From Gracilaria domingensis (taxonomy: Eukaryota > Rhodophyta > Florideophyceae > Gracilariales > Gracilariaceae), in assembly GCA_022539475.1 (NCBI GenBank), contig VCMS01000345.1, positions 1-56,639 on the forward strand: DNA of 56,639 bases, read 5' to 3'. Made by a program: the position numbers and the translations under genes. The notes under the pieces are model-generated. The model ran no database searches and was not told the origin of the DNA. It was given only the letters and a program-made list of their open reading frames with translations. Positions 44,610 through 56,639 of the stretch are shown piece after piece; the first letter of the stretch is position 1, and each line of letters begins with the position of its first letter.

Positions 44610-46300
44610 TCACAGGCAGCCCGCCCCGAAGTGCTGGACTCGGGTGAGTACACCTTATTAGACTCAAGATTGAGTGTTATCAAGATCTCCCTCGTAAATA
44701 TTCTTAAACAACAAACCGAACTTCGCCGTCGTCTCGACGATGCCCATGTTAGGGATTACTCGGGAGACATTAGACTCCTGCGTAAGGATGTGAACTCTAT
44801 TTTGGATTATCTTGGATAACCCGCTGTGTTGGCTGCGGAGTATGCTGCTTTTATTGAAGAAGCTCGGGTGAGCGCCACTCGCTTACAGAGTCGTCTGAAA
44901 AATCTAGAGGCTACTACCCGTATGGATGAGGCTGCGGCAGAAGATGACCCAATCGCCTCGGAAGGCTCTGCTCACCGCCCAATGAAGCGCAAATCCCGGA
45001 ATTCCAAAAGGAGGTTCACGCACACCCGGATCCGTCAGATTCCGACTCCCCGACCCAATCGTCGGGTACCTCGTCATCTTCCTCATCCTCGTTGGATAGT
45101 GGAGGTAGTAACCGAGGTCGGTCTCGAGTGACACGCTCTAAGGCGACCTTTGTCACCCAGGGGGCCATTCGCTCTCGTGATAAGGAAAAGAGACACAAGG
45201 GACTCAAGGAGTTGAAACCATCGAATCCGTTGTACCGGAAACTGCTTTCTTACCGTTATTATCGGTTACAGAACGTCTCAGGCGAGCGCAATGTCCATGG
45301 CACGGGGCAAATGAAGCATTACATCCTCCGAATGCAGGTTACTCTACAGAAGAAAGAGTTCAGTTGTGACGACCCAATTGTGGTGTTGGATTTCCTTGCA
45401 CGCTTCGTTCAGGAAGCGGACATACTCTGTATGAGTGAAACACAGGCGTATGTAGCCCTCCCATATTTCCTAAAGAGGATGGCCGGAGACCAATTTCACT
45501 CCGTGCGCGGATCAGCAAGAGCCTCTGAAGGCGGTGTCACGTGCTGGCCTGAAGCCGTTCACTTCCAATTGAGGTCATATGCCAGTGACAATGCGATCCC
45601 AGACGCTATTCTGGCCCTAGAGGCGACAAAGCAGAATTCGGGGGAAACAAACCAGTTATTCAACGCGCCTGAACAAAGCGTTTCACCGTTGCGGTAATGT
45701 TTATTCCTCAGCTGAGAGGTGCACAATGTTTGTGGAAGGATTGGACCCTGCCATCCGGGCGCCAGTACACCTTTATCTGGGCAGAACAGGACGATCTCCT
45801 ACTTGGAATTGGTTCACTACGCCCAGACTGAGAGACATACTTTCCGAGCGAGACGGAAGCCAACAAACAGGCCCACGAAGGCCCTTCTGGCTGAAGGATC
45901 TGACTCATCTCTCTCCCTGTTACAGGATAACCACCACGGGTGGACTATGATCAGGTCCAGTTCGCGCGAAATCCTATTTCAGTAGGAACGTCGGGGTTAC
46001 CCTCGACCACTACAGGGGAAACAATGGATACAGACCCTGTGGGCTATATGGGGAACTCTAAGGTTCCTGCGCCATCACTGGCCTATGCCAACAACCACAC
46101 TCGGTTTGCACGCCCAGGCTGGCGGGATACACGACCTCAACGACCGGCGGCCGCGCGCTCGATAGATAAATCGGTGTCGCTGATATGTCACGTGTGTTAT
46201 CAACACGGACATATCTCACCTCAGTGCTCGTTTCCCTTGAGAGAGATGCCGAAAGTAATCGTACAGTACGTCTGTCTCTTGCAGATGCTAGTTTTTGGCG
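44610..46300 (+). pseudogene. Outer element gag, C-terminal part
   Basis: Resumes after the inner element with a helical coiled-coil-like stretch (SVIKISLVNILKQQTELRRR), a stop at 44817, then AAEYAAFIEEARVSATRLQS. Near 45010 the sense moves to another frame: a Ser-run, SRVTRSKATFVTQG and a capsid-like region (DDPIVVLDFLARFVQEADIL). After another shift near 45690 it continues (MFVEGLDPAIRAPVHLYL) and ends in a CCHC knuckle (CHVCYQHGHISPQC, spacing 2-4-4), then LREMPKVI. Capsid wording parallels the inner element's gag (LFVEGLLPAIR), so the two elements are related. Several stops and shifts show decay. Confidence 0.75.
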
Positions 46301-46698
46301 AGGGTCGTCCAGAAATGGCAAGGGTCGTCCAGTAAATTTTTTGAAAAAATATCGAGATCAATTATTTCAAAATTGCAGATAATTGCTTGGGTCGTCCAGA
46401 ATCGCTGTGCAGTAAATACTGGTGGGTTTTCCACTCGTGCTAGTTCTTTAGTCGAGGGCTACCTGAACCGTATTTCGCGAAGTCTAGGTTCAGTTTCCAT
46501 TAAGGTGCACATTACACGATACCTTCTGCGGAATGATACCCTGCAACGCATGGAATACTAGTGCTAGTACAGATGATGCCCATTATGAAATCATACCGTT
46601 TTATTCGTATCTATTCTTCTATCGACCGCTTTTGCTAACCACTACTTCGCTATATTACATGTACCATTTCCCCATGATGGATCGGATGTAGGCCCAAT

Positions 46699-46718
46699 CT
46701 GCGGCAGATGCCGCAGAG
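46699..46718. repeat. Hairpin 1 of a three-hairpin cluster
   Basis: Arms TCTGCGGCA and TGCCGCAGA with a 2-nt loop, perfect. Confidence 0.75.
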
Positions 46719-46764
46719 GGCACCTGCACCAAATTGCTGGATCGGTAGAACACATACGCACTCC

Positions 46765-46797
46765 GAGAGGATGAGGCGCGAAGCGCCTCATCCTCTC
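46765..46797. repeat. Hairpin 2 of a three-hairpin cluster
   Basis: Perfect 15-bp arms (GAGAGGATGAGGCGC) around a GAA loop. Confidence 0.9.
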
Positions 46798-46798
46798 C

Positions 46799-46850
46799 GT
46801 TCCTCATGTAGGGAACCATGCCCAGATGCATGGTTCCCTACTTGAGGAAC
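46799..46850. repeat. Hairpin 3 of a three-hairpin cluster
   Basis: 23-bp arms (from GTTCCTCATGTAGGGAACC) with one mismatch and a 6-nt loop, starting one base after hairpin 2. Words GCACCTGCACC and CCTGCACCTGC lie outside the cluster on either side. Confidence 0.9.
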
Positions 46851-47129
46851 CTGCACCTGCAACTCGTGAGCTACGTACGCATCAAAAGTCATTTACCTGT
46901 ATACGCAAGCAGAAAGTATCCATAAGTTAGTCAATGATCCGTTAGATACATTTGAAATGCGATGGAACGTACCATTGATAAAACAAAACAGAAACGTTGC
47001 GCTAGAAAAGTCGAGGGACCTGGTAACTCGCAAACGGAAGAAGAAGCAGGAAAGGGATCGGTTAGATTACAAGCCCACCATATCATCGTAAACCGCGAAA
47101 GGTGTCGAAGCGAGAACTCACAAGCAACG

Positions 47130-47590
47130 ACACCAAGAATACCCATGCAGCAAAAATACCGCAAAATGCGATAAACGAGAGAGCAGCCTATGTCGCAACC
47201 AAGTACCAGAATCGACTATCCCGCAAGCCAGTCAACCAAGATCGCCAATACAAGAAGATCAACGTAAGGCGCGAGAAGAGAGGCGAGTCTATGAGGCAAC
47301 CAAGTCAAACCATATCGCCAATGCACCAAAAGTAACGCAAGACGCGATAAGAGAGAGACCATCCTATGGCGCAACCTAGTCAACCAAGATTGCCAATGAT
47401 GAACCTATCGCCCGAGCCAGTCAACCAATATCAACCAATATCGCCAATACACCAAAAGCAGCGCAAGACGCGAGAAGAGAGAAGAGTCTATGGCGGAACC
47501 AAGATCGCCAACAAACCAAAAGTAGCGCAAGATGCGAGAAGCTAGAGACGCCTATGGCGCAACAAAGTGAACCAAGATCGGCAATACCGC
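47130..47590 (+). repeat. Degenerate minisatellite
   Basis: About six irregular units of 60-80 bp sharing the words CTATGGCGCAACCAAGTCAA, CCAAGATCGCCAATAC and GCGCAAGACGCGAGAAGAGA. Units vary in length and have internal deletions, so the array is old. Frames through it are simple repeats, not genes. Confidence 0.7.
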
Positions 47591-47971
47591 GTGATAGGTT
47601 ACACGAGCAGTCAGAGATCGATCTTGAGAGACGAAATGAAACTGGTTGCGTACTTACAGTCGTTGTGGACGTCGGAAGAAATACAAAGGACGCACGTCAA
47701 ATAGTGGTTACCTTCAATCACGTCAATGTTAGTAGCAAGACGTAGAACAAGATGGAACATATCGTAAGCAGAACGTAGTTGAACAAATGGAACGAGTTGG
47801 AGGCTGAAAACGGGAACCCGGTAACCCAAAGCTTATTTTCTGCCGTTTACATGTCGAATAGCGCGAAAAAACGTGGTGAGGATGGGTTAGTTTAGAGCAA
47901 AGATACATAGAAGAATATGGAAGAGAACCTACGAAAAGACTGCACGGAATACATCCGTGAGATACGGATGA

Positions 47972-48046
47972 CTCCGTCCTACTTTTTTCCGCCCTCTACT
48001 TTAAGGAACCTCCATAAAGTACAGGGAGGAAAAAAGAAGGACGGAG
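47972..48046. repeat. 32-bp-arm hairpin upstream of the transposase
   Basis: Arms starting CTCCGTCCTACTTTTTTCC and ending GGAAAAAAGAAGGACGGAG, 3 mismatches, 11-nt loop. A smaller hairpin (CATCCGT-GAGAT-ACGGATG, 47952-47970) is directly before it. About 370 bp upstream of the likely transposase start, so it could be subterminal sequence of that transposon. Confidence 0.8.
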
Positions 48047-48415
48047 GGGAGTATAACGCGAGGATGTGGATGGCACGGATCACGACGGTAAGGGAAGGTC
48101 GGACGTCGGAGGCGCGGCGGCGGCGGCGGAGGGAAGAGATTTATTTTTCTGTGCGAGATTGGACAGGTGTACAGCGTACAACGTTGCGAAACCACAGGTT
48201 TATAACCAGTGGTAGATAATACGAGAAGTACACCCTTGTGTTGAGGTCGACGTGTACCTACGTTCCTTTTTGAACGAAAGCACGTGATTTGAACTCAAAA
48301 TATATTCTCCGTTCTCAGCATGACGTCGATCTTGACTGTCGCTCGACCTCCTTCTCCCTTCGGACGCCCTTCCCTTGCAGTCTTTGTCGTCGTTTCTCGT
48401 TCAGTTCTTCTTCCC

Positions 48416-51400
48416 ATGGTCTACTACTGTACACATAAGAAGCGTGGGTGCCCCTTCGTTACTCGCCGAGGAGTCTTATCCCTTCAACAGCATGTCAACC
48501 ATTGCCCGTTTCGTCTGAAAGCAGCGCTGGAAGACGACAATAGCCGGCCCATTCGGAGAAGCAAGCGTCTCAAGCTTTCCGCACCCGCGCCCGCATCTTC
48601 CGAAACGGTCACTGCCCCTTGTCGCCTTCCCGAGCCTCCAGTGTCCGAGGACATCGTCGACCCCACTCCGTGCGCCCCTCCCATTCCGGACACTTCGCAT
48701 TGTGTTTCTCCTTCCCCGGCTCCCGCGTCATTAGAGCGAGAACACGGAAGCAGTTCCCGCCCAGTGCCTTCTGAGGAGGCCCTCGGTGATTTGCATATGG
48801 ATTATCTCACGGTTTGTCTGGCTTCAGTAGCTTCCAACCTTGGTCATCGTGAGGCGGACGAGCTAATTGGGCTACTTCGGGACCCGCGATTCTCGCAAAA
48901 GCGATTCAACGAGACCATAACAAGTTCCAAGCGCTGTACAGAACTGAAGAAGGCCATTTTCGAACGATACGCCTCAAAGGACGGTTTCAATCGCAGAACT
49001 GTCTCGCCAGAAGGATGTAAGTTCAGCGCCACCCTCTACACGAGAGACCCCGTTCAGACACTTGTGAAACAGCTCCAGTTGGCTAACAACGAAAACACAT
49101 TCTTCCACCCTATACTCAGACCCACTCCACGAAAATATCTCACCCCATGTCCGGCTCTCTCGCAAGAGACGCCACCTCAAAACTTAAGGAAATGTCATGG
49201 GCTCTTTGGATAGTAGAATAGTGTGGTACTCCCAAGAAATAAGTTACAGTGAATCTTTCGTAGGTCTTCTGCAGGTATACACCGATAAGTCTTCAGCAAC
49301 TCTAAAGCAAACATCGGTTACCGCCTATCCTCTTCACCTCATATTTCTCAACTTCTCCGACCAGCTTCGCCGTAAGTGTATCCGTGATGACCTCACAGTA
49401 GTGGCATACTTCCCTACCACACTGATCGAGGTTTCCGCATCTGAAGCAGACGCAATGCCATTTGTTTCTAGCAAGTCTCTACGCGAGTCCAGGATGCAAA
49501 TCCTTCAAGAATCTCTTCGTCAAGTCCTGTAGCCCATTCTAAATCTCACGCAGAAAGGTTTTCAGTTCATCGGCGAAGACAAACTAAGTCGAGTGTGCCA
49601 TTCTCTGCTTGCAAGTTATTGTGCGGATATTCCTGAGGCTAAGGACATTCTGTCTATTCTTCATGGCACCAAAACGGAAAGCCCGTGTCATAGATGCAAA
49701 GCCCCTCGCTCATCTTTATGCAGTCCTATTCCCACCTCATTCAACGGACGTTCTCAAAAGCACACGAAAAGCATCCGAAAGACATACACAGCTATCTTGC
49801 AACATGCACAAAAAGACGAGGCGGAAAGACGTCCACGTCGTGCGAGGGAGAGGAGATCTCAAGCGGATACTCTGATGCGTTCAAATTCCATATCTCTCAT
49901 TCCTTCGTTCCTCGAAACTTCCGTAAGCCTTGGAATGATCCCGGGATTGTCTCCATACAGTCTGTTCTCATTCGAACCATTACACAACTTGCATCTCGGA
50001 ATCTCAAAGTTGATAAAAACGGCCACAATCGAGAGACTGCAGTCAGACACCCTGTGCACTACATTAGGAACATCTGCATCGCGTTCATTTCGAACGATAC
50101 GCACCCAACTACTCAACCATGCAAACGCAATTCTAGCTGCCATAGAACGCGATTCTCCTGCCAAAGGTTTACATATCGATTTCTCCACGCAGGAGAAAGG
50201 CAAATCTTTGAATGGTATCTTCACGAAAGACGGTCTCCGTGGAATGCTGGAGGCCAAAAACTACAAAGCACTTGACATGGTCTTTCCCTTCATAGGAGCA
50301 TTCTTTGACATATGCTGTGGAGAACAGGACGTTGCCCCAATCACAACCGTTTTCTCTCAGTATTCGGACTTGCTCTCGACCTTATTCAGATACAATCGTG
50401 ACCCGTATTGGACTGAAAGCTCTCTCCTGTGTCTTAGTTCGGAGATTGAAGCCTTCAAGCGTTCCGCAACAAAGACTCTGGCGGATTTTCATCCCTCCAG
50501 ACTGGGAACTCTGAAGTTTCATCTTCTCGATCATCTCGTGGACAATATTCGCCGTCTGGGAAGTATCAAGTATTACGACGCAGGCATATACAAACATGCA
50601 CACCTGCTATTTAAAAGACACTACAAAAAGACGTCCAGAAGAACAGCAACGGCTGTGGAGGAGACTATTCGCTCCATTGAGCACGGACATGTTAGAAAGC
50701 AATGGAATGGCAATACTCCTTACCAGCGTAATCCAGGTTTACCAGGAACTTCCACACAGCTTCCTCGGTTTGCAATGAGAGGGCGTTCTTTCACTTTACG
50801 AGCTCTTCAACATTGTGTTTCAAGTATGTCCAGTTCAAAAACATGGACTGCTGTTAGAGAAATGTTCTCAAGTACGGACACAAGGTCGATTCTTGATCAA
50901 ATTGGTCAACAGGCCCTTCCTCCTTTCCTCAGTCTCGTGAAAGAAACACTGGATGAGCACTCTATTACATACTTCCCAGAAAAGACAAGGATAACTCTGG
51001 TGAATTCGGCCGTCGTGAAAGGCGGTTTCGTTCCGACTCTTGAACACTTCGATTCGTCTTCTAAGGCACTTAAGCTGGGACGACCCAAATACCCCATCAT
51101 CCAACGTGTCTTCGCTTCTCCAGCATTTGGTCCCAGTAGAAAGCCAAAGTTTTCCACTGTATTGGTAAGCGGAGAAGATTCAGAGACTTGGGTTGCCCAG
51201 GTAGTCGCTCTGATTCGAATATCTCTCCTTGATTCTGCACTTACCGCACCAGAGGTGGCATTCGTCCGGTATTTCGAGGTTTTACCCCCCGCAACAAACA
51301 TCGACCACATATTGAAATGCATATCTTTACGGTGGGCTACAAACGATGAAAAGAACCACACTCTTCCGTTCCCTCGTCATTCCAAAGCGGAGACTATCGT

Positions 51401-51593
51401 AGAGTTAACTCCTTGGTACGGGATGGTTCCGGCTTCTGCACTACAGGGAACTGTCCATGTTGTTCGATCAAACTACCCTGCTCCACCTTTTTGTCCTCCA
51501 CTTCAATGGTTCCAACACCGATTCTACATCAATCGATTCTATCATGATTCAGATGAAGGACCAACTGAGCACGTTGATCTTGTACAGCCTTAA
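48416..51593 (+). pseudogene. CACTA/Plavaka-like (EnSpm superfamily) transposase
   Basis: The first frame opens at 48320; its best start is the ATG at 48416 (CCCATGG), 27 bp before a Cys/His finger (CTHKKRGCPF...QQHVNHC) as at the N-terminus of Plavaka/CACTA transposases. It shifts frame near 49195. The second frame has VYTDKSSATLKQTSVTAYP, the first catalytic Asp block, then a TAG at 49530. It then continues through CHRC, SLFSFEPLHNLHLGISKL (the D/E-P-LH block) and LKFHLLDHLVDNIRRLG to 51593. The enzyme would cut and paste the element by DDE chemistry. It overlaps the 3' end of the minus-strand gene by 65 bp. About 1050 residues in all, near family size. One shift and one stop remain. Confidence 0.78.
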
Positions 51594-53984
51594 ACATTAA
51601 GGGCTCCATCTCTACATGTTCACCTTGTGGTGCCTTTTCTTGTGATCCTGTGTTAATTCCGAAATCGTTCATGTCCATTTCCTTGAACTCCATATCCCCT
51701 TCCTCGCATTCACCAACGAAGCAATCGCTAATAGACCCCAATCTTCGGCTCACACTGTCAATAAAAAATTGTTCTTTCACAGTGAGGTAAAGTCTTCCGT
51801 TCGACGGCATTCGATATCCAAATGTAGCCTCTCTCATGTCATTACCAAGAACCTTAGTCCAATCTTCCGTTGTCGTTCCAAAATTATGAAACTCGCTGGA
51901 ATTGGTCCTCAAGACATGTTGCCTAACATCCCCCAGAACATTCTTTAAACACAGAGGTAGCAGTTCAGCAAACTTCTTTGTAAACAGTTTCTGTCTCTGG
52001 CCACCCCTTGACACATCCGTACTTAGAAGGCTCACAACCGTCAACACCCAAGCGTCCAAACGTGCGAGCAACAGTATTGTGCCATCTAAAAAGGTGCCCG
52101 TATCCTTGTCTTCCACATCATACCCAATAAACTCCTTCAGCACTTGTACCCCGACACGGTTTCGGAAGAACAAGTCTTGATCTTCCGTCGGCATATCCTC
52201 GACATTGTCCGCATTGGAGTACTTTAGACGAACAAATGGGGCTTTTCTCCACCATGAAGTGTTCGGTACACCATTTTCGTCAAGACGCAGTATGTTCTCC
52301 TGCGCTTCCTTCAACTGCATTGTGAGTTCGTCAGCATTCTCTTCTACAGCTTTGTTCTTCTCCAAATCAGATCGTACCCCAGGAGCAGAAATAGTTTATC
52401 CCTCGTATTTCTCTTACGAACGCCCACGACGTCACTCATGGTCTGCCGCATTCTCTGCCTAAGGCACATATCTGCACAAAGTTCCAGTATACACCTGTCG
52501 GTAAGAGATGCTTTTCTAATACCTTCCCAGCTCAACTCCTTCAACTCGCTTTCAACCATTTTCTTCAGCAAAGCATCTGGCCCCCCCTCTACCGACGGTG
52601 TGAACATGCCAAAACTGCCCAAGAGCTCCACGGGGTTTTTAGGAACCATGTATGAACCACCTTCCTCCGGCTCAATAAGCCCTTCCCCACTCTCAGTTGC
52701 GTCTTCTACCTTCTCGGCACGGTTACCCCAATTTCGGGTGAGCGACTCACCTTCGAGCCATAGCTCACTTGTTTCTCTCCTTGCCCACGTCAGCATGTTG
52801 TGATACACTGCTCGAGCAACCCCTCGAAACTCGTCGCACACCTCAATTTTATGCTTCTTTCGACCTGTCTGCCCAGGTTCACCACCACGTGTACTCCTAT
52901 CTCCCTCCTGTTTCAGTGCCCCTCTTAGCCCTTCAATGACTAGATCCTTCTCTTCAAGCCTCTTTTTCAAAGCCGTACTCTGCTCTTGGGCGACCTTCAC
53001 TAGAATTCCCCGAACCATCAAGTCCTCTTGTAGCGTCTTAACCTTTTCTTTCAAGCAATTCAGTTCATTTAAAAGATCAGGTCTGTTCATAGAGCTTGAA
53101 TTCACACCAGTTTGGATATCTTCCGTTATTTCCCTAGCTTCTTCGGCGACAGGCCCCGGTAATGCCGCAGGATTCGGTGTTATTTCGTTATCGGAACTAT
53201 CCTCATGTGCCATAGCCTTAGCCACGAGAGGCTGCAGGCGTTCTGTGTCCACCCTTGGCACGGCTCCGAGCTCCAACTCCCGTGTATGTCCTCCTCCATG
53301 GCATGGTATATCAGATGAATTGGGCCTCGTACGAGCTGCAACGGCCCCCGTTCTGGAAAGAGGGGAAGGTCGAAAAGTAACTCGTCTATCAGTTGTCTCT
53401 CGATTTCTTATTGTGTTTCTCCCTTGTCCGGACCCATTGCGAGGCATGATACGATTCATAGCGGCCCCAGTTCTAGAAGAGAGGGATGGACGTGACGATC
53501 TTAATATACTAGGACTCTCACGACTTCTCGTCATTGTCCCTTGTTGTCCAGATCCACTGGGCGGCGTAACCCGCGCCCCAGTAGCTCCGGTCTTCGATAT
53601 CGGCCGGGGACATGAAGGTTTTGGTGTCATACGAACCTCTTCGGTTCCAGTTGTCATGCCCTCCTGTCCTGACCCGCTGGGCCGAGTTACCTCATCTTCT
53701 TGAGGAGCAGAGACAGATGCACGATTTGCATTATCGGCAGTTGACGGCACGACATCGTTCGCTGATCCACGAATTCTTGACGCAATCCCGGAAGACGCTC
53801 CGCTGCGAGATGGGCGAGAGAGTCCTGTAGAAGGACGCCCACTGACTCTCTCCTTCGTCGAGGACGACTTCCGTTTAGGAAGTGCGGTGCTTGTAGCCTG
53901 ATTCGTATCATCCGATGCTCTTCTCTTCTTCTGTCCACTCTTGTTCCGCTGCGTACTATTTCGCTTTCTCGGCGTTATACCCAT
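51529..53984 (-). pseudogene. Transposon-associated coiled-coil protein with 40-aa repeats
   Basis: The ATG at 53984 (MGITPRKRNST) starts a basic, Ser/Arg-rich region. Three 40-residue repeats follow (residues 101-220), each with P-x-GSGQ, an RE-rich middle, RPS-LS and RTGA. A coiled coil follows (~304-362; LKEKVKTLQEDLMVRG). The frame breaks near 52360 (GYDLIW against DLEKNKAVEEN). The second frame adds 278 residues that are helical, then acidic, to 51529. No catalytic motif. Position and basic plus coiled-coil build resemble the DNA-binding accessory proteins (TnpA-like) of CACTA elements, but that role is inference. A second ATG frame upstream (54056) runs through a poly-G tract and is not used. 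Confidence 0.6.
53325..53684 (-). repeat. Three 120-bp coding repeats
   Basis: These encode the three 40-residue units of the coiled-coil protein. Lengths are exactly equal, and sequence is conserved mainly at GSGQ, RPS and RTGA. Confidence 0.75.
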
Positions 53985-54021
53985 GCTGTGGAGATAAACA
54001 GGGTAATGAAACGAAATTGTT

Positions 54022-54051
54022 GGGGAGGGGGGGAGGGGGTGGGGGGGGGGG
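54022..54051 (+). repeat. Poly-G tract
   Basis: About 30 bases, nearly all G (GGGGAGGGGGGGAGGGGGTG and onward), in the leader of the coiled-coil gene. It is a difficult sequence for assembly and a potential quadruplex. Confidence 0.8.
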
Positions 54052-54234
54052 TGCATGGTTCAGATATTCCGGGAGACTCCGCAGTTCCTGCTTTTTAGGA
54101 ATTTGAGGTGCCCAATGGGTCGCAAATATCGCCGTTACAGATGAAGAGCTCCAGTGTACATGTACAACAACGCGTATTGCAGGCAGCTGCAACACTCACA
54201 AGCATATTTACTTTGTATTCGCTACTGAACTCAT

Positions 54235-55145
54235 CTATTGCTCCAATGTCAGAGCCCAGTCCCAGGCGTACTGCTCTCCGTAGTCGAAATACAACTCTTC
54301 GCCCTCTCAATATCTCTTACTGCTCTACAACGAAGTAGAGCATAGTTAGAAAGGTCTGACTTGAACTGTATCACGGACTTCGCTTCCACCACCTGCACAT
54401 TGGCACTTCGAGTCCTGTTTGACCGGGGCTCCGATAAATCGGGATCCCCGGCATGATATCCGGCGTCGTTAATGTAGCCCCCGATACAAAAAGGCGCCGG
54501 GACAATGTAGACTTCGCTCTCCTTTCTATCCTGAGCCTGTCCTGGTCTGTTCCTCAGGTGCAGAAACTCCGTACCAGTCACAGTGACCATCATAGAAAAC
54601 AACTTGTACCGCACTGGAGTTGCTCCGAGACAGCCACTTCCATACGTTAAGTGTCTTTCCTTCCGGTTCGTCAGATCCGTGTATACCAAAGTTCCATAGA
54701 AATGACAGATAGTTTCCCCAGCCAATATCTTATGTTCCGTGAACACCCCCATACCAGCACGGGGATGTCGGATCTTAGAAGATGCTATATGTAAGCGATA
54801 TCGATTGGCTTCAACAGTCAACAGCATATGCATATCCATAAGATTCAGAGCTCCTCGGTACTTCTCCTCCCAAAGATCTACAGTACGCTCTCCACACTTG
54901 TCGACAAAGTCCCAGTCCTTCCAGTATCTTCCTAGGAACTGAGTAATATGTCCAGGCATCACTTGGTACTGGGGGTAACCAAATGGAGCCTCCCATTCAA
55001 GCCGACCTCGGTCCCGATGTGGAACCCGTTCATAGGTCGTTGAAGCCGCATCCACCACCTCCTGTTCAACCAGGATGTCATTCTTCCCCCCCGAATAACT
55101 TCGGCCATAAGAGTCGTTAGATGGTGCTTCGCATGGCTGAAACAT
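54235..55145 (-). pseudogene. SET-domain lysine methyltransferase module
   Basis: C-terminal module of the large methyltransferase protein. SET starts near 54785 (IRHPRAGMGVFTEH, ILAGETICHFYG), as in the SAM-binding GxG strand of SET domains. GYINDAGYHAGDP with RSANVQV replaces the usual NHSCxPN knot. The final catalytic strand, GEELYFDYGEQYAWDW, is present but one base out of frame (shift near 54300), with the true stop at 54235. SET enzymes methylate lysines, usually on histones. About 120 residues before SET (EWEAPFGYPQYQVMPGH, a Trp-rich stretch) form a conserved-looking linker. It reads in continuation with the DNA methyltransferase through a C7 run at 55087 (G7 on the coding strand). 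Confidence 0.82.
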
Positions 55146-55963
55146 GGCCTATTCTTCTCGCACCCCAAGAACTTCCTATGCTTTGTCAGCGATAGGCACG
55201 CCATACCCGTAGAAAAAGTTCCCGCGAACATGTCCATGACAAGATCACCCGGTCTTGTGAAGCGACATATCAACTCCTTCATCAACTCCCTCGACTTCTG
55301 CTCCGGTCTTATGTACTGCCCACCTGGTACTGAGCTACCTGGCTCATGTACCTTCCATGTCAACCACTCCCCGCCTCGGTTTGGGCACCCGGTCAATTAC
55401 ATTCCTGTTAGCCGGGAAAGTGGAAGGAATGAAATTGTTCTCCTCAAATGGAGTAAGACTGGCTTCCTCCGATGGTCGCAATCCACGCTTCACCCCATGA
55501 ACGGCGTACTCCGTTACGGGCTGTATCCAAACTTCCGTGGATTCCCTCCAACATTACTGCGATCCCGGATGAACACCAGTGGATTCGCATCCACTTTAAA
55601 CGAAGGCATGAGTTCTGGTTTACCTTCGCTTCCAGCTTCATCTTTCGTACTCGCCGTTTCCGAAAGTATCCTGTGCCACACATGAAACTGTGCCATGGCA
55701 CAGAATATAATGAAGTGCCCACCTGACCGAAGCGCGGAACTTATTAAGTCAGCCGTACGGATCATGTCTTCCTCACTGAAGACATCGTGACCACTATTCC
55801 GTTTGTTCCTCTTCCTTCGAGTGTTAAAGGGAGGGTCTGTTAGGACAAGCTGTGCCTCACCCCATAAAATCTCACTCTGATTCACAAACGTTTCGTGTGT
55901 GTGCCTCAGGTCCTTCATGTCACAGTTGTACGCTACAAAGTGTGACTTTCTCATCCCTTCCAC
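55146..55963 (-). pseudogene. Beta-class DNA adenine methyltransferase module
   Basis: Motif order is that of beta-class amino-methyltransferases. First comes catalytic motif IV (LVLTDPPFNTR, 55826-55837), then GGHFIIFCAMAQFHVW, NPLVFIRD and TEYAVHGVKRG. Last comes the SAM-binding motif I (DLVMDMFAGTFSTG, 55205-55246). DPPF favours N6-adenine, though N4-cytosine cannot be excluded. The parts lie in three frames; single-base shifts occur near 55525 (after FGYSP) and 55375 (in a GGGG run), and another at 55087 leads into SET. All known motifs are intact despite the shifts. The nearest relatives by style are bacterial restriction-modification or CcrM-like enzymes, so capture from a prokaryote is plausible. 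Confidence 0.82.
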
Positions 55964-55965
55964 AC

Positions 55966-56639
55966 CTTGTCCATATTCATTCGAAGGAGACTGGATATCC
56001 CTTCATGGGCGGCTCAATACCAGTCTTTTGGATGTTGTAACCAGCAACCCGAGATTCATGCTCCGCAAGATTCACCGGCTTCTCGAACTCGTCGCTATCG
56101 GAGCTCACGAGGTTCATATACTCTCGACGAGGTGGGGGTGGGGCAGACTTGGTCGAAGAAGGTTCGGCATTACCGGAAGTTTTAGGGGTTTTCGTCAGTT
56201 CAATATCAGGTTTCGCGTGAATGCCGACATGGAACCCTGCCGCATGACGCATATCCTGTATCGGTTTCCATAGCAACTCCGAAAACTTCTGAAATCGAGC
56301 AGGCAACTCACCGGAGTCAGAGCTAGATACGGTATCCATCCGTATCTCCGAAAACTCTATCCAGTTCCTCATCTGATCAACCCGTAAGCTATAGAGGCTA
56401 TCGTGGGTGCATATGGTTTCCAGGTCTGTCAAAAACTCCTTAGCCAGTATTCGCAGGTTTGTATCGCATTCATCACTCAAGGTCTCCACCGATCCACTAG
56501 TACTGCTCTGTGGCACATCCTTTGTGTTGAATCGAGTACTCTGGCTCGGCGGGGCATAACCAGACTCCCGTGTCTCTAGCGCTGTATACTTCAACGTCTG
56601 CATATTCATGTAAATGTATGGTTTTACCATGTGCTGAAC
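55966..56639 (-). pseudogene. N-terminal region of the methyltransferase protein (window edge)
   Basis: About 217 residues with an in-frame ATG at 56630; the true start may lie beyond the edge. Polar, Ser/Thr-rich, helical in the middle (LRILAKEFLTDLETI; QMRNWIEFSEIRMD) with a Pro run (SAPPPPRREYM). No domain is recognised. The frame ends at FE-stop, but a one-base shift near 55975 continues it as EYGQGVEGMRKSHFVAYNC into the methyltransferase. It therefore probably belongs to the same polypeptide of about 800 residues. Confidence 0.5.

Follow-up and report, generated by a model that had tools for sequence, protein, structure and literature searches.

A giant Plavaka transposon of Gracilaria domingensis with a predicted DNA methyltransferase-SET fusion gene

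Giant DNA transposons have been described from several algae, some of them with genes for DNA methylases. Methyltransferases (MTases) of the N4/N6 type in transposons of red, green and brown algae, together with giant red-algal EnSpm elements, are reported in PMC12477816, which cites Petroll et al. (2025) jointly with Iyer et al. The present analysis concerns a stretch of 56,639 bp from the red alga Gracilaria domingensis (GenBank assembly GCA_022539475.1, contig VCMS01000345.1; hereafter the window), which ends inside a giant transposon carrying a predicted fusion of an MTase with a SET domain. Petroll and colleagues (2025) reportedly attributed the growth of the Bostrychia genome to giant Plavaka elements.

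The giant EnSpm/Plavaka elements of Bostrychia moritziana (Petroll et al., 2025; doi 10.1016/j.cub.2025.04.044) are among the closest known systems, being likewise giant, provided with several accessory genes and found in a red alga, but their host belongs to an order other than that of Gracilaria. The 21.5-kb algal DNA transposon Sola1-1_Ec32 of Ectocarpus (PMC12477816) likewise encodes its N4C/N6A MTase and its transposase on opposite strands; its transposase is of the Sola-1 type and its MTase is fused to ParB, whereas in the Gracilaria element the MTase is fused to SET and a ParB-like open reading frame (ORF) is separate. The TET-carrying Plavaka and KDZ elements of fungi (Kojima, 2025; PMC12730594) also include Plavaka transposons with a DNA-modification enzyme, but their hosts are fungal and their enzyme is an eraser, whereas the Gracilaria element has a predicted writer and a dioxygenase-like ORF without a Pfam family. 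A SET histone methyltransferase is encoded by another DNA transposon, HarbingerS (Kojima and Jurka, 2014, Repbase Reports, cited in PMC12730594), which belongs to the Harbinger superfamily and whose title names no DNA methyltransferase. In bdelloid rotifers, the eukaryotic N4CMT (PMC8885841) likewise joins a bacterial-type N6_N4 MTase to a chromatin domain, but it is a host gene with a chromodomain reader, whereas the Gracilaria fusion is a transposon gene with a predicted SET writer.

The preliminary description of the window, made from its sequence without database searches, had known of no account of a DNA-methylase/SET fusion inside a cut-and-paste transposon. No MTase-SET fusion in a transposon was found among the matches listed in a search of titles and abstract openings of open-licence PMC articles, and the term "SET domain" was not found in the main text of PMC12477816. 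The surrounding features are not without precedent, of which transposon-borne N4/N6 MTases, giant red-algal EnSpm elements and a SET-encoding Harbinger have all been reported. Giant algal elements with DNA methylases are thus already known, and the MTase-SET fusion may be the new part.

The genome surveyed was an assembly of 77.9 Mb in 680 contigs, in which the window is the entire contig C345. The borders of the element were taken as the start and stop of the sequence common to copies on other contigs, and this comparison indicated that the window ends inside a DNA transposon of ~22.9 kb, the left ~10.4 kb of which is present. The span first given to the element, 48320..56639, has to be revised, as the left end of the element is at 46271 and its right end lies beyond the contig. 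The features central to the analysis are as follows:

46271..56639, plus strand: left part of the transposon (multi-copy comparison), which runs on past the contig end and measures 22.9 kb in copy C91
48320..51593, plus strand: Plavaka transposase gene, frame-broken in the window (frames 48293-49213, 49188-49532 and 49533-51593)
54249..55148, minus strand: SET-domain frame; in the window a frame shift immediately precedes its last motif
54959..55396, minus strand: part of the MTase with the motif I-like MDMFAGTFSTG
55514..56002, minus strand: part of the MTase with motif IV, TDPPFN (VLTDPPFN)
55977..56639, minus strand: N-terminal region of the MTase-SET protein, without a named domain, running off the contig end and aligning to the homologue P0001

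The window copy is damaged: the transposase is split between three frames, and MTase-SET is broken into four pieces. In copy C91 the transposase is one uninterrupted frame of 1100 codons that matches the Plavaka family PF18759 with 68.1 bits (cut-off 26.3), compared with 22 bits for the window piece, and on the basis of this Pfam match above the cut-off the element is classified as a Plavaka transposon. PF18759 was found in 57 of 58 transposase homologues, and the candidate DDE acids, judged from an alignment of 59 sequences, are D332 (54 of 54 sequences that have a residue at this site), D446 (58 of 58) and E562 (59 of 59). With a distant homologue as the query, 36 of the 42 transposase matches listed had no stop. 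Substitutions were counted against C91 in codons with a single change only, in comparisons that are not independent of one another; for the transposase, 12 copies gave 102 synonymous and 123 nonsynonymous changes, a ratio of about 0.38.

The MTase in the C91 frame matched PF01555 (N6_N4_Mtase) with 58.9 bits (cut-off 26.7), and its motif order is that of the beta class, with DPPF (motif IV) ahead of DMFAGT (motif I). The SET domain matched PF00856 with 35.0 bits in C91 and 28.5 bits in P0001 (cut-off 22.4), and with 15.4 bits in the shifted window frame. Profile searches of C91 recovered all three modules that had been recognized by eye in the window. Of the motifs cited at that time, VLTDPPFN, MDMFAGTFSTG and AGMGVFTEH are indeed found in the window, each in a minus-strand frame of its own; GEELYFDYG is out of frame there, the shift lying immediately before it, and continues the SET frame in C91.

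The earlier proposal that MTase and SET are fused was upheld by three lines of evidence. Firstly, one of the 11 copies read at the junction (C565, 99.7% identical to the window there) continues from MTase into SET. Secondly, when P0001 was compared with the genome, 21 of the 54 matches listed had no stop, and 15 of these had both domains in one frame (on C12, C597, C164, C465, C237, C56, C378, C600, C257, C171, C419, C157, C211, C47 and C328). Thirdly, P0001 itself, a homologue from another source, is a single protein of 852 amino acids with both PF01555 and PF00856, and has 36% identity over 98% of the MTase query. On these predicted proteins the fusion is real. A 38-nt intron at the junction was also considered and was dropped, since the reading frame passes uninterrupted through the junction in C565, in P0001 and in other genomic matches.

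Adenine-specific enzymes (DpnA, CcrM and MboIIA) are the best PDB and NCBIfam matches of the MTase, whose motif is DPPF or DPPY, and on these grounds the predicted beta-class amino-methyltransferase probably acts on N6 of adenine. No C5 methyltransferase (PF00145) was detected in the assembly by a search that was positive in 10 of 14 control genomes, all of the positives being prokaryotes, and which a split eukaryotic gene could escape. For DNA methylation genes carried by a transposon, an assembly without detected PF00145 is an unusual setting. The observed/expected CpG ratio is 0.90 in the C91 element vs 1.11 in window positions 1-46268.

It is proposed that the fusion would act as a chromatin writer encoded by the element. 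The MTase half would mark the DNA of the element, probably with N6-methyladenine (6mA), and the SET half would methylate a lysine of histones close by, of the transposase or of a partner of the latter. In combination, the two marks would give the copies a chromatin state of their own, in which their genes stay expressible and/or their ends are recognised by the transposase; the dioxygenase-like, ParB-like and HAD genes of the right half may have the same function or may be carried as passengers. In several eukaryotes 6mA accompanies permissive chromatin (PMC12695648). Permissive self-marking (anti-silencing) is the likeliest use of the predicted fusion, although we hold it tentatively and would not yet call it probable. 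The wider suggestion, that a transposon-built DNA-plus-lysine writer determines the epigenetic state of the element itself in a host lacking C5 methylation and that the main DNA mark on the repeats of this seaweed is transposon-written, is somewhat unlikely.

A number of observations weigh against this reading. Ten of the 11 copies covering the MTase-SET junction lack read-through: six share a one-base frame difference (C345, C50, C91, C591, C139 and C502), three do not read through (C105, C182 and C120) and one stops (C187). As 33 of the 54 genomic MTase-SET matches listed also contain a stop, many young copies may be unable to make the fusion. A second homologue, P0002, has the MTase without a SET match. 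Between copies, the SET part showed 11 synonymous and 26 nonsynonymous changes (10 copies, about 0.7), the nonsynonymous changes being few and not clearly below neutral, and the MTase showed 21 and 26 (seven copies), 20 of the 26 falling in the decayed copy C120; these counts are too small for a claim of selection on either domain between copies. The SET half is only weakly nearest to KMT2A and KMT5A among solved SET structures. SET lysine methyltransferases usually have an NHS pseudoknot motif and a GEEL..DY motif; GEELxxDYG is present here, and IND stands in place of NHS in both C91 and P0001. Predicted structures of P0001 and P0062 were unusable, with predicted local distance difference test scores (pLDDT) of 38 and 29. 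A precedent for the opposite effect is found in bdelloid rotifers, in which N4-methylcytosine (4mC) deposited by an amino-MTase helps to silence transposons (PMC8885841).

The junction data would suit an explanation without any fusion, in which MTase and SET are separate neighbours or decayed pieces, since ten of the 11 copies, the window among them, have a frame break or a stop at the junction. This has been largely refuted by the read-through in C565, the 15 one-frame matches among the 54 listed and the single chain of P0001, and is very improbable. The one-base frame difference lies at or near a G-run at about position 55060 of the window and could be an assembly error, decay or slippage.

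The rotifer precedent bears on a different use of the fusion, namely self-silencing or copy-number control, in which its DNA and histone marks would quiet the element and limit damage to the host. In rotifers the amino-MTase marks transposons and SETDB1 is the proposed partner for H3K9me3 (PMC8885841), and a fusion of a DNA writer with a histone writer would suit such a self-sustaining loop. However, the rotifer writer is a host gene and is not transposon-borne, and the many near-identical copies in Gracilaria do not look self-limited. Self-silencing is considered unlikely.

The homologue search, which depends on shared 5-residue words, gave only P0001 and P0002 at an E value of 0.001 from 6698 candidates. 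P0001 matched six PHROGs families named DNA methyltransferase or methyltransferase; P0061 had no match in PHROGs, and no viral relatives of P0001 were confirmed in viral_contigs. Within the genome, the fusion matches form groups that differ in frame length. On contig C12 a Plavaka transposase (67891-70773, plus strand) is followed by an MTase-SET gene (73847-76291, minus strand), in the same order and on the same strands as in the window. The copy on C139 is rearranged, its left flank lying within a second Plavaka transposase, and the transposase piece in this flank is 38.9% identical to the family of the window over 175 amino acids. Because a 74-bp part of the flank is 97% identical to C12:68284-68357, within the C12 transposase, the two transposases are taken as one diverged subfamily. 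As this subfamily keeps the layout of transposase and MTase-SET, and as the fusion in P0001 is 36% identical, the association of the two genes is, judged from sequence divergence, old and no recent capture.

The fusion could also serve as a cofactor of transposition, with methylation marking the ends (strand or replication state) or modifying the transposase, thereby timing or targeting transposition, and with SET acting on proteins of the element and not on histones. Dam methylation marks the ends of bacterial Tn10 and IS50 in this manner (strand/replication state). In two diverged subfamilies the MTase-SET gene is the neighbour of a Plavaka transposase, and with the MTase probe of the window a transposase was 3.3-3.5 kb away at seven of the 40 places listed, and 0.7 kb away at one more, on C28. 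Against a cofactor role, distant queries paired just one of the 53 MTase-SET places (C12) with a transposase among the matches listed, and we regard such a role as rather unlikely.

The right half of the element, outside the window, was studied in C91. A ParB-like-motif ORF at 12.6-14.1 kb of the element is separate from the MTase (motif reading); its best Pfam match, GmrSD_N (E 0.11), is below the cut-off, and no Pfam match to the ParB family was obtained in P0001 or the MTase ORF. It is followed at 15.5-16.5 kb by the dioxygenase-like ORF, which was weighed as a candidate TET/JBP dioxygenase and for which Pfam gave no match and PDB gave matches at chance level only. Its motifs RQTLHTDF and GDVTHA are both present in four of the six copies covering it (C50, C155, C139 and C591), the exceptions being C269, with the first motif only, and C91, in which both His are lost. 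The ORF shares 95% identity with "hypothetical protein FGB62_128g110 [Gracilaria domingensis]", and 103 of the 120 matches listed (472 candidates) had no stop. It lies on the opposite strand at 4.4-6.0 kb from MTase-SET at 12 of the 53 MTase-SET places listed, and at 5.2-6.0 kb from the MTase probe at 11 of the 40 places listed. Compared with C91, five copies had 16 synonymous and 62 nonsynonymous changes in it, a ratio of about 1.1 that is partly explained by decay of C91, the reference copy. Two HAD-hydrolase ORFs, oppositely oriented, follow at 16.8-18.8 kb (PF08282, 26.0 and 49.3 bits; cut-off 20.9), and the half also contains a coiled-coil-like ORF and a reductase-like ORF, the latter labelled by eye and without a Pfam match.

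These metabolic-looking HAD genes raise the question of passenger cargo, that is, captured genes which are useless or serve the host, as the HAD hydrolase genes themselves may be, and genes without a known function are common in giant algal transposons (PMC12477816). For MTase-SET this is improbable, since it is kept in strongly diverged groups and the homologue from another source has both domains at 36% identity.

Two further frames lie between the transposase and MTase-SET in the window:

51529..52395, minus strand: frame of 288 amino acids that shares 65 bp with the transposase; either the second part of an accessory gene or a separate gene
52344..54059, minus strand: low-complexity, coiled-coil-like protein of 571 amino acids without a Pfam family, the coiled coil being judged by eye

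The 65-bp overlap between the plus-strand transposase (frames to 51593) and the first of these was correctly described from the start, and the coiled-coil protein reported alongside it corresponds to the second, whose coiled-coil character is a reading by eye.

The ends of the element and the sequences next to them were compared across copies, and the corresponding features of the window are as follows:

46269..46270, strand not assigned: CG, proposed 2-bp target site duplication (TSD), kept in eight of nine uninserted retroelement sites
46271..46283, plus strand: left terminal inverted repeat TCTGTCTCTTGCA, matching the right end of other copies, TCTGTGTTCTGCA as reverse complement, at 10 of 13 bases
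46302..46399, plus strand: subterminal motif GGGTCGTCCAG, occurring three times (46302, 46322 and 46389)
47129..47587, plus strand: degenerate tandem-repeat block within the element (repeat families D1-D4)

Across copies the element ends are TCTGT...ACAGA, with CG flanking each side. All 16 left ends inspected (12 and four more) start with CGTCTGTCTCTTGCA, and all nine right ends read (three and six more) terminate in TGCAGAACACAGACG, CG included. Eight of the nine uninserted relatives of the interrupted stretch have CG (e.g., CAGTACGAGTC) and the remaining one has CA (TACAAGTC), so that CG probably predates the insertion. Because all nine right ends read also finish in CG, we propose a target site duplication of 2 bp, CG, and element ends of TCTGT...ACAGA, with a single target family as the basis. 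When the flanks of seven insertions were joined and searched for, the matches listed, mostly of one repeat, included no second empty site, and no consistent 3-bp duplication was found in the seven copies with both flanks read.

Elements of the strict CACTA/EnSpm type have 5'-CACTA termini and a 3-bp TSD. The ends found here, CGTCTGT..ACAGACG, depart from this, and of the initial designation CACTA/Plavaka the second part is retained and classic CACTA is not. PlavakaA elements have 2-bp TSDs and TGT..ACA ends (PMC12730594), and PlavakaB elements have CATCA..TGATG ends; the CG on both sides would fit a 2-bp TSD, but the ends would then be TCTGT..ACAGA and not TGT..ACA.

The insertion interrupts a gag-like frame of a retroelement (window 45931-46268) with a zinc-knuckle-like CHVCYQHGHISPQC, most of which was matched at 25 other places in the genome, nine of them read. 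A hairpin with 36-nt arms (89% complementary) and a 3-nt loop is found 5' of the transposase, at 47972-48046 of the window.

Five DNA probes each matched at least ~40 places in the genome with 95-100% identity (coiled-coil gene and transposase 98-100%, MTase 95-100%, left and right ends 99-100%); a further 251-649 first-look candidates per probe are unscored and unconfirmed as copy counts. The common sequence is present from end to end, with some gaps, in C91 (22.9 kb), C139 and C155, and C137 has both ends 23.0 kb apart. In C315 the left end is absent from the piece examined, and in C385 it lies beyond the contig. As foreseen, inverted ends enclosing the transposase, the coiled-coil gene and MTase-SET were found in other copies, with the gene-bearing right half in addition, and they do not enclose 48.3-51.6 kb alone. 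Copies of the transposase do have the minus-strand genes, and some are internally deleted, such as C283 with ends about 10.1 kb apart. The right flank of the C139 copy (C139:102104-110103), which we take to resemble the proteasome subunit RPN1, suggests an insertion or rearrangement in or beside an RPN1-like gene or pseudogene.

Contigs C345, C502, C62 and C310 are among those that end inside the element near the MTase gene, and near the same gene C91 has one N plus a repeated stretch. The repeat formed by the element probably breaks the assembly and hides copies. The genome of Gracilaria domingensis is 78 Mb in size, compared with 30, 36 and 45 Mb for three other Gracilaria species (PMC10388701), and the many copies of the element may bear on this larger genome.

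Each of the other transposons compared here has just one such component, be it an eraser (TET), a DNA writer or a SET domain. With a DNA writer and SET joined in one conserved protein, a single selfish gene could couple two epigenetic layers. In a host without a detected C5 methyltransferase, it becomes directly testable whether transposons, beyond evading the epigenetic marks of their host, may come to own them.

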